A stretch of 44,462 bases of DNA, from positions 1-44,462 of the forward strand of contig CAIYOW010000004.1 in the NCBI GenBank assembly GCA_903927955.1. The letters are read 5' to 3'. Below the pieces are notes generated by a model. It worked only from the letters and a program-made list of their open reading frames with translations. It did not search any database and was not told the origin of the DNA. How positions within the stretch are numbered: the stretch's first letter is position 1; each line of letters opens with the position of its first letter. This stretch comes from an uncultured Methylococcaceae bacterium. GTDB lineage: Bacteria; Pseudomonadota; Gammaproteobacteria; Methylococcales; Methylomonadaceae. Shown piece after piece: positions 40,296 to 44,462 of this stretch. Made by a program: the position numbers and the translations under genes.

Positions 40296-40622
40296 TTAAG
40301 TGGCTAGCCCTTTTACCAATAACCGATTATTGCCCGTTGCCGAAAACAACATCACCCCGCTGGGGAAAAACTGCTTGCCCAACACATCAAAAGCCAACTG
40401 GCCCGGCAAAGCATAGCAACGCACATCATCCTCGCGCGCATGGATAATGCGTTCAATCGTAGCCAGCAAACGCAGCAACGCCCCCCGCCGCAGCTCAACA
40501 GTAAACACCGAATACTGCACCGGAATACCTTGTTTTTTAAGGCAACGATGGACACGCCCCAAACGCTTGGCATTGGCAATATCATAACTGACCAAAAACA
40601 GGGACTTCTGACTATCTGCCAT
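40296..40622 (-). CDS. cas2: CRISPR-associated Cas2 (second copy, cas2')
   Basis: 108 residues from MADSQKSLFL, with GGAG 8 bases upstream. Ferredoxin-like Cas2 fold: LFLVSYDIANAKRLGRVHRCL with the conserved Asp in YDIAN, and VQYSVFTVELRRG (strand with the YSVFE-like motif). Longer at the C-terminus (GVMLFSATGNNRLL) than the other copy. Last gene of the four-gene operon, 35 bases behind the Cas1-like gene. It is clearly diverged from the other Cas2 beyond the core motif, so this is not a recent duplicate. Confidence 0.9.
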   Translation of the reverse strand: MADSQKSLFLVSYDIANAKRLGRVHRCLKKQGIPVQYSVFTVELRRGALLRLLATIERIIHAREDDVRCYALPGQLAFDVLGKQFFPSGVMLFSATGNNRLLVKGLAT

Positions 40623-40657
40623 GACCACCACTCCAGCTATTAAAACAGATCAACCCG

Positions 40658-41416
40658 CTAAAACAAATCGACCAACCAAGCATGTAACTTATTGAGCAAG
40701 CTCTGATGCAAACGCTCGACACGCAAAGTGCGCCCATAAAAAAACCCAACCTGCTGCCGATAATCGGGATACGCGGATAAACCTTCCAGCCACACCAACA
40801 CCGGCACCCGAAAATCCCATAACAACAACTCAGTAAAATCCTTGGGCAAATCTAGCCACGGCTCTTGCAACAACTCAGAATCGGCAGCCAAACCGTTGTT
40901 TTGGAACAGCTCCACCACCTGTGCAAACAACAAGCCCCGCACACAAGCCAGCACCGGCATAACCGGTTGCAGGGGCAAACTGTTTTGCTGCTGGCATAAA
41001 AAAGTCTCCAGCTCATTCTGGGCCACCGTTATCTGCTGATGTTTAAGCAAGCTATTGGCACAACTTTGCACCACCATCCGCTGCATTGCCTGATACCAAT
41101 CTTGGTAACGTGCCCCGCCATCGGCCCGCCCCAGTAAATCCACCAACCGCTGCCTAAAACACTGCCGGTCGTCGCCTTGGCCCAAGCACCGCGCCACCAC
41201 CAAGCCATCATTATCCAAAAAACAAACGCTGATGCCTTGGCTGGCACAGGCCAGCAACGCTTCTGTATGCCACTGCACATGCCCCCTGACCAGCACCCGC
41301 GAAACACGTTGTAAAGGGAACAGTTGCTCGGCTTGACCGGGCACATGCACCAGCAATGCCGGCGTTTCCAAACCCACCCAAGCCCCCTCACGCCCTTCAA
41401 TATACAGCGGACGCAT
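40658..41416 (-). CDS. Divergent, probably inactive Cas1-like protein (cas1')
   Basis: 252 residues, some 65 shorter than the neighbouring Cas1. The N-terminal beta-domain is plainly Cas1: LFPLQRVSRVLVRGHVQWHTE and ALLACASQGISVCFLDNDG match LHLLERVVLRGQVLLDTRLL and ALAEKNIGVLMLSGRN of the true Cas1. The helical domain is reduced: the catalytic Glu motif is not present, the position of the catalytic His reads ELLQEPW (Gln184), and only an Asp in LLWDFR (Asp201) remains. I infer a structural, non-catalytic subunit. It overlaps cas1 by one base (TAATG), so the two proteins are made together. Confidence 0.8.
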   Translation of the reverse strand: MRPLYIEGREGAWVGLETPALLVHVPGQAEQLFPLQRVSRVLVRGHVQWHTEALLACASQGISVCFLDNDGLVVARCLGQGDDRQCFRQRLVDLLGRADGGARYQDWYQAMQRMVVQSCANSLLKHQQITVAQNELETFLCQQQNSLPLQPVMPVLACVRGLLFAQVVELFQNNGLAADSELLQEPWLDLPKDFTELLLWDFRVPVLVWLEGLSAYPDYRQQVGFFYGRTLRVERLHQSLLNKLHAWLVDLF

Positions 41417-42372
41417 TAACCTACCCCACGAAAATCCGCCACAAAACGCTGCGCCAACGCATAGCCATAACGCCTAAACAAGCGCCTTATCGGATTGGCG
41501 AACAACTCATATTCGGCATAAAAGCGCTGCCTGCCGCTTTTGTTAAGCAAAACCTGCCCGTTGTCATCAGAAAAATTTTCCGCCCGCAAAGCCCGTTCCC
41601 TAAATAACCGCCAAACCAACGCATCCAAAGCAGCCCGTTGCGTCTCCATAAAATCACAAGCCAACGATTCGCGCCCAAAAGCCGGATCATGAAAAAAGCC
41701 AATATAAGGGTCCAGCCCCGACTCATGGCAGGCTTTGACCGCCTCAAAATGCAACAAAGTATAGCCCAACGACAAACAGGCATTGACCGGGTCTGGCGGC
41801 GGTCGCCTGTGTCGGCCTGTAAACTGCAAAGACGGCGCAAACAACGCCCGGTAAGCCTCAAAATAAGCCGCTGCAGCACTGCCTTCAAAGCCCCGCAACT
41901 GCTCCACAGATACCGACTGACCGCCAGCCAAAGTAGCCAAAATGCCCTCCAATGTGGCAATAGCAGCGGTGAACTGGCGGCGCAAATCCTGCCGCTGCGG
42001 CAACGCCCGCACCAACAAACTTTTTTGGCTACGCAACTTGGCAATCACCAGCCAGCGTGACAGCTTCACCCGTTCAGCCCCATCAAGATAACAGCTATAT
42101 TGCGCCACCCGCCGCTGGCTATCGTTATGCGGCCTGCCCAACAGCATCGCCACATTACGGTGGTTGCGCCCGCTCAACATCAACACGCCAATATTTTTTT
42201 CCGCCAACGCCCCCAACAAACGTGTATCCAAAAGCACTTGCCCGCGCAACACCACCCGTTCCAACAAATGCAACGGCACTGTGCCGCTCTTGGCGCCTTG
42301 CTCGTACAAAGCGATACAGCCACCTTCATACCCCAATCGCAAATCCTTACGGTCTATAAACAACGTACTCAA
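41416..42372 (-). CDS. cas1: CRISPR-associated integrase Cas1
   Basis: 318 residues from a TTG start (GGGG 7 bases upstream; no ATG nearby). N-terminal beta-domain, then the all-helical catalytic domain with Glu163 in GFEGSAAAAYFEAY, His228 in GFFHDPAFGRESLACDFME and Asp240/Glu243: the expected metal-binding active site. With Cas2 it inserts new spacers. It follows cas2 by 4 bases and overlaps the Cas1-like gene by one. Confidence 0.96.
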   Translation of the reverse strand: MSTLFIDRKDLRLGYEGGCIALYEQGAKSGTVPLHLLERVVLRGQVLLDTRLLGALAEKNIGVLMLSGRNHRNVAMLLGRPHNDSQRRVAQYSCYLDGAERVKLSRWLVIAKLRSQKSLLVRALPQRQDLRRQFTAAIATLEGILATLAGGQSVSVEQLRGFEGSAAAAYFEAYRALFAPSLQFTGRHRRPPPDPVNACLSLGYTLLHFEAVKACHESGLDPYIGFFHDPAFGRESLACDFMETQRAALDALVWRLFRERALRAENFSDDNGQVLLNKSGRQRFYAEYELFANPIRRLFRRYGYALAQRFVADFRGVG

Positions 42373-42376
42373 TCAC

Positions 42377-42661
42377 CTACCCCACATAATAAAAAGCGCC
42401 GTCTTGCGGCGGCACAGCCTTACCCAGCGTCCGTACCCGACAACGGGCATCCAGTTGCAACAACAAAAAACGGTCTTCATCCGGGTCAATAATTGACTTC
42501 ATCGACGCCAGCAGATGGTCTTTTTCGGCATCGGTCAAAAAACATTCATACACCGATTTTTGTCCGCCGGATGCATACGAACGCACCACAAACAACGCTT
42601 GGCGCAAGCGCTTGCTATTGGCAATGTCATAAGCTGCAATATAAAGTTGACGTTTTTTCAT
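42377..42661 (-). CDS. cas2: CRISPR-associated Cas2 (first copy)
   Basis: 94 residues: LYIAAYDIANSKRLRQAL with the conserved Asp, and SVYECFLTDAEKDHLL (Cas2 dimer strand). First gene of the minus-strand adaptation operon; the start codon lies inside the left copy of a 67-bp dispersed repeat. Structural partner of Cas1 in spacer integration. Confidence 0.95.
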   Translation of the reverse strand: MKKRQLYIAAYDIANSKRLRQALFVVRSYASGGQKSVYECFLTDAEKDHLLASMKSIIDPDEDRFLLLQLDARCRVRTLGKAVPPQDGAFYYVG

Positions 42662-42726
42662 GGCGCAAGCATAGCCCTATCGGCAATAAAAGGGCAGGCT
42701 GGCAAGCTTGCCAACTCAATGGCGGG
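42660..42726. repeat. 67-bp dispersed repeat, copy 1
   Basis: Matches 43407-43473 in the same orientation over 67 bases: identical for the first 17 and last 39 bases, with differences confined to 11 bases between. It contains the palindrome GGCAAGCTTGCC. It overlaps the cas2 start codon. Confidence 0.85.
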
Positions 42727-43354: not shown

Positions 43355-43406
43355 CTACGGCCTACAGGCAATGCCATAAACGGCAAAATGCGGTTGAATT
43401 AATGTG

Positions 43407-43473
43407 ATGGCGCAAGCATAGCCCCAAGAGCAACAAAAGGGCAGGCTGGCAAGCTTGCCAACTCAATGGCGGG
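43407..43473. repeat. 67-bp dispersed repeat, copy 2
   Basis: Direct repeat of 42660-42726. Together the two copies bracket 680 bases that contain the PEGA-like lipoprotein gene. Confidence 0.85.
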
Positions 43474-43592: not shown

Positions 43593-43934
43593 TTAGGATG
43601 CTTGGCGGCAAGGCGGGGCTACATCAGCCGAACATCCAAATGTTTGCCCAGTGCTTTGGCATATTAAGGTGGACAGACTAGGCGAGTGCTTGCCGGACAC
43701 CAGCGATGCTTCCAGCCTCGCCACTGCCGAGGCTTTAGTGCCCATGCGTTCGGCAACTTGCGCGTGGGATAAACCGGTTTCACGTCGGGCGGCAAGGATC
43801 ATATCCAGCATCGGCATTTCTTCACGCTCAATGCGTTCATATTCGGCCCACACTTCCGGGGCTTCCAGTAGGTAGCTAAACCATTTGCCCCGGCTTTGTC
43901 TTAATCCCTTCTTAATAAGGTCAGATATTTAGGT
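43593..43934 (-). pseudogene. Broken XRE-type antitoxin (HigA-like) gene
   Basis: On the minus strand, APEVWAEYERIEREEMPML, AARRETGLSHAQVAERMG and SAVARLEASLVSGKHSPSLSTL are typical of Xre/HigA antitoxins. After that the normal continuation (usually RRYAEALGC) is lost and the frame runs into unrelated residues, indicating a frameshift. No ATG precedes the homology: the frame continues rightward through the first CRISPR repeat (reading SDLIKKGLRQ) to a stop at 43929-43931. The cognate toxin gene is missing. A relic cut off at the array edge. Confidence 0.7.
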
Positions 43935-44462
43935 TCTGTGTCACATCAAAACCACCACAGGTTTTACCTGTGTTAATCCCTTCTTAATAAGGTCAGATAT
44001 TTAGGTATTAAAGGTAGCTAACATTACCTATCAGGTAGAGTCTTAATCCCTTCTTAATAAGGTCAGATATTTAGGTAGACGGGGAACTTCAAGTATCCAT
44101 TATAGGAACCGTCTTAATCCCTTCTTAATAAGGTCAGATATTTAGGTCAAGGATTTATCATCATGCAGCTAAAAGAACTAAGGGTCTTAATCCCTTCTTA
44201 ATAAGGTCAGATATTTAGGTGTTATCATCAACATAACTAGAGTATCAAAATGAAGTCTTAATCCCTTCTTAATAAGGTCAGATATTTAGGTATCCCTCGC
44301 CCATGGAATGGGCATCACTTTAACCGGTCTTAATCCCTTCTTAATAAGGTCAGATATTTAGGTTGACCAGAAACACCAACCCAACCTTGAAACCCATGTC
44401 TTAATCCCTTCTTAATAAGGTCAGATATTTAGGTAGAGGGTAGAGTTATGTATATCTTAAAC
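43898..44462 (-). CRISPR. CRISPR array, 8 repeats of 37 bp, running off the right edge
   Basis: Repeats start at 43898, 43970, 44040, 44111, 44184, 44255, 44327 and 44398. Each begins GTCTTAATCCCTTCTTAATA and ends CAGATATTTAGGT. All are identical except the second (C to G at position 3). Seven full spacers of 33-36 bases plus a partial eighth. On the minus strand the repeat ends in ATTAAGAC, like the ATTGAAAC 5' tag of many type I/III crRNAs, and the imperfect repeat lies at the left. I therefore infer leftward transcription with the leader beyond 44462. The strand is inferred; the array itself is certain. No interference genes visible, so the type cannot be assigned. Confidence 0.98.

Follow-up and report, generated by a model that had tools for sequence, protein, structure and literature searches.

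Results

The four-gene operon

The 44,462-nucleotide (nt) stretch of DNA analysed here as a whole, hereafter the window, belongs to an uncultured Methylococcaceae bacterium (assembly GCA_903927955.1, contig CAIYOW010000004.1) and carries at 40296-42661, on the minus strand and with a CRISPR array alongside, four adaptation genes in the order cas2a-cas1-cas1'-cas2b (Table 1). A canonical adaptation module is defined by one cas1 and one cas2; two of each are found in the window, as in 68 of the 74 loci that we read for the diverged second Cas1, Cas1'. The genes are separated by 4 nt (cas2a/cas1), a 1-nt overlap (cas1/cas1') and 35 nt (cas1' to the ATG of cas2b), which reproduces all three distances from which an initial annotation, made from the letters of the window alone, had read them as one tightly packed operon. 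Both small proteins score above the CRISPR_Cas2 cut-off (Pfam PF09827; 57.0 bits for Cas2b and 51.0 bits for Cas2a, cut-off 23.8). The arrangement is real and not a matter of chance, because the identical order is present in 67 of the 68 complete loci, the window included.

Table 1. Features at the adaptation locus (aa, amino acids)
Feature	Coordinates	Strand	Remarks
cas2a, first Cas2	42377..42661	(-)	94 aa; GGQKS motif; Pfam PF09827 51.0 bits
cas1, catalytic Cas1	41416..42372	(-)	318 aa, TTG start; Pfam PF01867 247.9 bits
cas1', diverged Cas1	40658..41416	(-)	252 aa; N-terminal domain, no conserved catalytic site
cas2b, second Cas2	40296..40631	(-)	GTG start gives 111 aa, ATG at 40622 gives 108 aa
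Small helix-turn-helix protein	43593..43853	(-)	86 aa; Pfam HTH_31 and HTH_3 barely above cut-off; between array and operon
Stretch spanning cas2a start	42615..42726	(-)	82% repeat copy at 43362-43473; holds a 20-mer with two copies genome-wide
CRISPR array	43898..44462	.	8 copies of a 37-nt repeat; reaches end of contig C4

An intact Cas1 and a partner without its active site

The cas1 product matches the full Pfam model PF01867 (positions 1-282, 247.9 bits) and has the catalytic residues E163, H228, D240 and E243. Among the relatives covering each position these are present in 70 of 70, 72 of 72, 72 of 72 and 70 of 72 sequences, respectively, the two exceptions at E243 having D. The product of cas1' scores 34.8 bits with the same model (cut-off 22.3), the match being confined to residues 9-84 in the N-terminal domain, and hhalign aligns it with Cas1 along its length at a probability of 98-99. 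When the two profiles are aligned, Cas1' has a gap where Cas1 has E163, and Q184 where Cas1 has H228; D193 and E196 align with D240 and E243, and therefore the window copy retains two acidic residues there. Across the 74 Cas1' sequences, H occurs at position 184 in 3, D at position 193 in 49 and E at position 196 in 2. Judged by the catalytic Glu, His and acidic residues Cas1' does not belong with Cas1, and judged by its N-terminal similarity it does. The initial annotation had proposed just such a pair, a Cas1 that keeps Glu163, His228 and Asp240/Glu243 beside a Cas1' with a recognisable beta-domain, no catalytic Glu and Gln at the place of the His, and in these respects it holds in the window and, for Cas1, among the relatives too.

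The Cas1' frame varies from 243 to 298 aa across the 74 loci, and six residues (Y5, L21, P34, R37, C57 and W107) are near-invariant in 55 sequences and look structural. On its sequence, Cas1' is a maintained protein without the Cas1 active site, because the residues are lost and its ratio of nonsynonymous to synonymous divergence (dN/dS), given below, is low.

Distribution of the four genes

With the window Cas1' as sole query, 12 of 61 related genomes gave a match; a first contig scan with the window protein had given none. A profile built from 12 Cas1' proteins and searched in 311 genomes of the order matched 81 at E 1e-3, 55 of them below E 1e-14. None of the remaining 26 had a match better than 2e-8; their best matches are mostly N-terminal and, inspected in part, look like ordinary Cas1. 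At 1e-12 the profile matched 20 of 369 genomes in a sample of the class (three belonging to the order), and a phylum sample of 398 genomes gave 6 matching ones, the window's own among them. The 74 loci comprise 52 from the order, 17 further ones from the class sample and 5 further ones from the phylum sample; 51 of the 55 matching order genomes were read, those with fragmentary matches (G165, G166, G169 and G180) being left out. Searches for Cas1' in plasmids and in viral contigs gave no match.

All four genes occur in 68 of the 74 loci, and the single departure from the window order is L102 (cas1-cas2a-cas1'-cas2b). Four incomplete loci are cut by contig ends (L093, L109, L112 and L134), in L088 cas1 is absent and the contig stops short of cas2b, and L084 is without cas2a and the first part of cas1. 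The initial annotation had suggested asking, by a hidden Markov model search, whether the Cas1' family always neighbours a complete Cas1; the association is nearly constant, the loci without all four genes being cut or broken. In the 67 complete loci other than L102 the three successive gaps lie within -30 to 30 nt in 61, 52 and 62 loci, with +3, -4 and -1 nt, in turn, as the commonest values, and the gene lengths revealed no fused frame among the four genes. A scan of named genomes gave 24 Cas1' loci, with hosts that include Methylobacter sp. KS41 (L163, record PHSP01000003.1), Methylotuvimicrobium buryatense 5G, Crenothrix polyspora, one Methylomonas and one Methylicorpusculum. Overall, the four-gene set is present in many methane oxidisers and bacteria related to them.

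Some individual loci have further features. Between cas1 and cas1', L085 (3933-4715) encodes a histidine kinase core in which no sensor part is obvious (NCBIfam); L094 has at 1943-2734, likewise between the two genes, an open reading frame whose start resembles that of the L085 kinase gene, and the cas1/cas1' gap of L095 equals the L085 insert in size. Other double-Cas2 layouts were seen as well, namely cas2-cas2-cas1 in L153 (1853-3408) and a 707-aa open frame containing Cas1, followed by two cas2, in L162 (2623-4117).

Selection and the location of conservation

For dN/dS we used the 26 of 340 pairs in which dS was 0.02-1.5 in all four genes. The medians were 0.12 for cas2a, 0.14 for cas1, 0.19 for cas1' and 0.16 for cas2b, and the highest single value (0.65) was in cas1'; purifying selection acts on all four genes. 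Median amino acid identity over the 340 pairs was 0.798 for cas2a, the best conserved gene of the four, 0.750 for cas1 and 0.634 for cas1'. In one pair, L096 and L098, Cas1' is nearly identical (1.00) at identities of 0.96 for Cas1 and 0.84 for Cas2b, a mismatch that may reflect recombination within the operon.

Conservation within the two Cas1 proteins was compared in 66 of the 68 complete loci (2145 pairs), taking the first 84 residues as the N-terminal part of Cas1'. Mean identity of Cas1' was 0.434 in this part vs 0.265 in the rest, with the N-terminal part ahead in 2128 of the 2145 pairs; Cas1 had the opposite trend (0.475 vs 0.520, N-terminal part ahead in 612 of 2145). The beta-domain of Cas1 is its dimerisation domain, and the pattern in Cas1' would fit a protein retained for that domain.

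Two Cas2 lineages

A Cas2 tree (58 of 70 Cas2a, 59 of 72 Cas2b and 22 others; 105 columns, short search) placed Cas2a in a single clade of 58 rows with a support of 95 in the Shimodaira-Hasegawa-like approximate likelihood ratio test (SH-aLRT), and Cas2b in a single clade of 59 rows (SH-aLRT 98) apart from one long outsider nested in it. Cas2a is 92-95 residues long, except in the broken locus L088, and its core G-x-Q-K-S-x-x-E is strict, with G32, Q34, K35, S36 and E39 identical in 70 of 70 sequences. The Cas2 proteins of single modules mostly scored higher with the Cas2b profile (21 of 22), which the greater breadth of that profile may favour. For eight plain modules (L146-L148, L150, L152 and L154-L156), each with one cas1 and one Cas2b-like cas2 and, by profile, neither Cas1' nor Cas2a, the single Cas2 is closer to Cas2b than to Cas2a by profile score in 8 of 8 cases. 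Since the Cas2 of these nearest ordinary modules resembles Cas2b, it is Cas2a and Cas1' that have the look of additions or specialised components, at least as far as sequence similarity goes. The same result counts against the description of Cas1' in the initial annotation as paired with its own Cas2.

A search of the class sample with Cas2a alone gave 22 hits at 123-148 bits, followed by 98, 73 and at most 63 bits, and 20 of the 22 strong genomes were already known to hold Cas1'. We fetched the loci of the remaining two and of the next two hits (L187-L190). The cas1 of L188 is interrupted by a contig cut, that of L189 is without its middle, and that of L190 (5609-6730), where the Cas2a match is weaker, is split by roughly 100 extra bases that contain stop codons and may represent a small mobile element. 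In L187, cas2a, cas1 and cas2b are all intact and there is no intact Cas1' frame; directly after cas1 comes a stretch of 21 residues aligning with the beginning of Cas1' (10.2 bits; E 0.025, calculated for 1000 sequences; best shuffle 4.2 bits among 1243 scored of 2000), with no intact frame downstream. A search of the four genomes with the Cas1' profile at E 0.01 returned matches of the ordinary Cas1 type only, and the L187 stretch was not among them. Three loci thus have both kinds of Cas2 and no intact Cas1', one with a Cas1'-like remnant and two with a broken cas1. Among the loci seen, L187 alone has an otherwise intact set of cas2a, cas1 and cas2b lacking Cas1', and it bears what is apparently a remnant of the missing gene. 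The Cas1 of L187 groups beside those of L121 and L124 within the four-gene rows, a nested placement that is weakly supported (79).

CRISPR array and type III effectors

Allowing up to 3 mismatches, the array repeat of the window occurs in the genome 8 times on C4, the contig of the window, and 7 times on C8, which also ends in an array. C8 encodes a Csm4 above and a Csm5 below the cut-off as well as a CARF protein, and C100 encodes Cas10/Csm1 and Csm2, both above the cut-off. The system served by the window operon is most likely of type III-A, because C8 shares the array repeat at its contig end; C100 is linked by gene content only. Type III-B effectors (NCBIfam) were found in other four-gene loci, namely Cmr4, Cmr5 and Cmr6 in L025, Cmr4 in L136 (with a Cmr3 match below the cut-off) and Cmr2 in L139. 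By local profiles at least one type III-associated gene is present in 45 of the 74 loci, and Cas10, Csm2, Csm4 or Csm5 in 22, several of these matches being weak and some lying in III-B loci. The 29 loci with no type III-associated gene include many short contigs; some are 12-19 kb long (for example L103 and L104), and there the effector must therefore lie elsewhere or have been missed. Where effectors were identified, the four-gene set associates with those of type III, whether III-A or III-B.

Arrays with the TTAATCCCTT-type repeat were measurable in 37 loci, lying upstream of the operon in 23 and downstream in 14, and in 34 of these loci the repeat points the same way relative to the operon. 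The spacers of the window array and of the long array of L023 gave no phage match in a search that left a viral collection outside its range.

A 20-mer with a palindrome, GGCAAGCTTGCC, stands at 42693-42712 and 43440-43459, inside the two copies of the 112-nt repeat (Table 1); these are its only two sites genome-wide with up to 2 mismatches allowed, and both are exact. One copy is upstream of cas2a and the other upstream of a gene at 43294-42893; the repeated stretch is a possible operator or a possible local duplication. The 2.9-Mb genome also has further Cas1 genes besides that on C4, their neighbours being judged by eye: one on C102 with a Cas2 near genes of an apparent second type III system, one on C66 that follows a Cas9-like protein of 1042 aa, a diverged copy on C40 and, on C78, a weak match below the cut-off.

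Discussion

The four-gene set represents a real and conserved version of the module for CRISPR adaptation, catalogued as a profile and, as far as we found, unexplained. The initial annotation knew of no described system with this layout, which needs correcting. The PADLOC profile PDLC01185, "Cas1, diverged variant, second in the loci", covers the Cas1' family itself: it matches the window protein at 9e-12 and all 55 Cas1' scanned of the 74 (best E 1.2e-75), and Cas1' does directly follow cas1 in 67 of 68 complete loci, cas2a intervening in L102. Its one-line description gives no mechanism and does not mention a second Cas2. Two genome papers also note doubled genes, as "two copies of cas1/cas2" in the type III-A system of Methylobacter sp. 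KS41, deposited as PHSP (PMC6119699), and as two cas1/cas2 copies in a type III-B locus of Acidithiobacillus ferrivorans YL15 (PMC5438186); in their accessible text both mention the copies in passing and leave the dead site, the two Cas2 types and the wide conservation undescribed. The accessible parts of a review from 2022 on adaptation in type III systems (PMC9048733) and of the 2025 classification (PMC12669027) contain nothing on the four-gene set, and we found no functional study of it or of Cas1' in the open literature, most subscription papers and supplements being beyond reach.

The nearest structural reference is the canonical integrase of four Cas1 and two Cas2. According to the available part of a preprint on the type I-F Cas1-2/3 complex (PMC12259127), the active Cas1 subunits are 100 Å apart, the inactive ones form the walls of the repeat channel, and the floor is a Cas2 homodimer. 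In that complex one and the same protein supplies the active and the inactive subunits, whereas the four-gene set encodes its second Cas1 and its second Cas2 in separate genes. We think it somewhat probable that the set encodes a heteromeric integrase with Cas1' as a fixed non-catalytic protomer. The four genes would then jointly encode a single adaptation machinery serving a type III CRISPR system, in which Cas1 would perform the chemistry at both ends of the prespacer and Cas1' would occupy the non-catalytic Cas1 position, most likely in a Cas1-Cas1' heterodimer formed through the conserved N-terminal beta-domains, with a Cas2a-Cas2b pair at the centre. The result would be an obligate heteromer, probably (Cas1-Cas1')2 plus Cas2a-Cas2b, and a division of labour that is set by position in ordinary integrases would here be fixed in sequence. 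We infer the physical complex, its stoichiometry, the Cas2-Cas1 contacts and any effect on orientation.

Several observations weigh against a heteromeric integrase. Loss of catalysis by itself would in part move conservation off the C-terminal domain of Cas1', and Cas1' is without one alpha-domain segment, is poorly conserved there and may not fit the non-catalytic position. Distances in the four genes correlate alike (0.87-0.91), and the partial correlations (0.26-0.40) single out no special pair among them. L187 has intact cas2a, cas1 and cas2b without an intact Cas1'. In a Cas1 tree of 57 of the 72 four-gene Cas1 (3 short sequences and 12 near-copies dropped) and 22 others, the eight Cas1 of the plain modules form a clade inside or next to the four-gene Cas1, so Cas1' is dispensable for a Cas1 of this group; the plain modules belong to the same Cas1 group, and some have neighbours that look type III-like by eye. 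Only two internal residues differ consistently between the 57 four-gene Cas1 and 7 of the 8 single-module ones. The four-gene label requires 2 changes on this tree, and forcing the four-gene Cas1 to be monophyletic is not rejected by the approximately unbiased test (p 0.184; 60 of the 79 rows used).

Alternatively, Cas1' might be an accessory that binds DNA or docks, for instance as a reader of the leader or repeat or as a link to a host factor, and that uses an old Cas1 fold to place an ordinary Cas1-Cas2 complex at the array. We regard this as unlikely: the loss of catalysis and the variability of the C-terminal part speak for it, but conservation is concentrated in the N-terminal Cas1 domain rather than in a new DNA-binding domain, and eight related single modules manage without Cas1'. 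The largely uniform repeat orientation noted above lends it weak support that shared descent would also explain. Dead paralogues made from one operon with an active enzyme can act as a brake, and Cas1' might likewise be a dead subunit in poorly active mixed complexes that hold spacer uptake low in type III hosts. A simple brake would have no need of the second, distinct Cas2 that accompanies it in all 68 complete loci, and only one otherwise intact set without Cas1' was seen (L187), with its apparent remnant and weakly supported nested placement; we consider this distinctly unlikely.

The tight gaps by which cas2a adjoins cas1 and cas1' adjoins cas2b could be taken to mean two overlapping machines, Cas1-Cas2a and a separate Cas1'-Cas2b pair that is not an integrase. 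In all 8 of the nearest ordinary modules, however, the Cas2 is similar to Cas2b, which is for that reason unlikely to serve only a dead Cas1, and conserved order by itself is no proof of pairing, which leaves this reading very improbable. We attach almost no weight to the last candidate, a decaying second pair, which the initial annotation had itself raised. The somewhat faster change of cas1' relative to cas1 (identity 0.634 vs 0.750, dN/dS 0.19 vs 0.14) would suit it; it is already contradicted by full-length frames in the 74 loci and the low median dN/dS of 0.19 in 26 pairs, and we rejected it.

If the set does encode a heteromeric integrase, a further and rather doubtful step can be envisaged. 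In the available text of the type I-F preprint the complex is C2-symmetric and must still orient its spacers; orientation is a question there because the integrase is two-fold symmetric and its active and inactive Cas1 are the same protein (PMC12259127). A Cas2a-Cas2b pair together with a dead Cas1 could break this symmetry, and the differing ends might then fix spacer polarity without a protospacer adjacent motif (PAM) or Cas4. Were this true, fixed polarity would matter to RNA-targeting type III systems, for which half of all randomly oriented spacers would be useless.

The four-gene set has a bearing on how type III systems acquire their spacers. Roles appear to have been split into separate genes and kept so across many lineages, and as a consequence the role of the non-catalytic Cas1 and the symmetry of Cas2 become directly testable by single-gene deletions.

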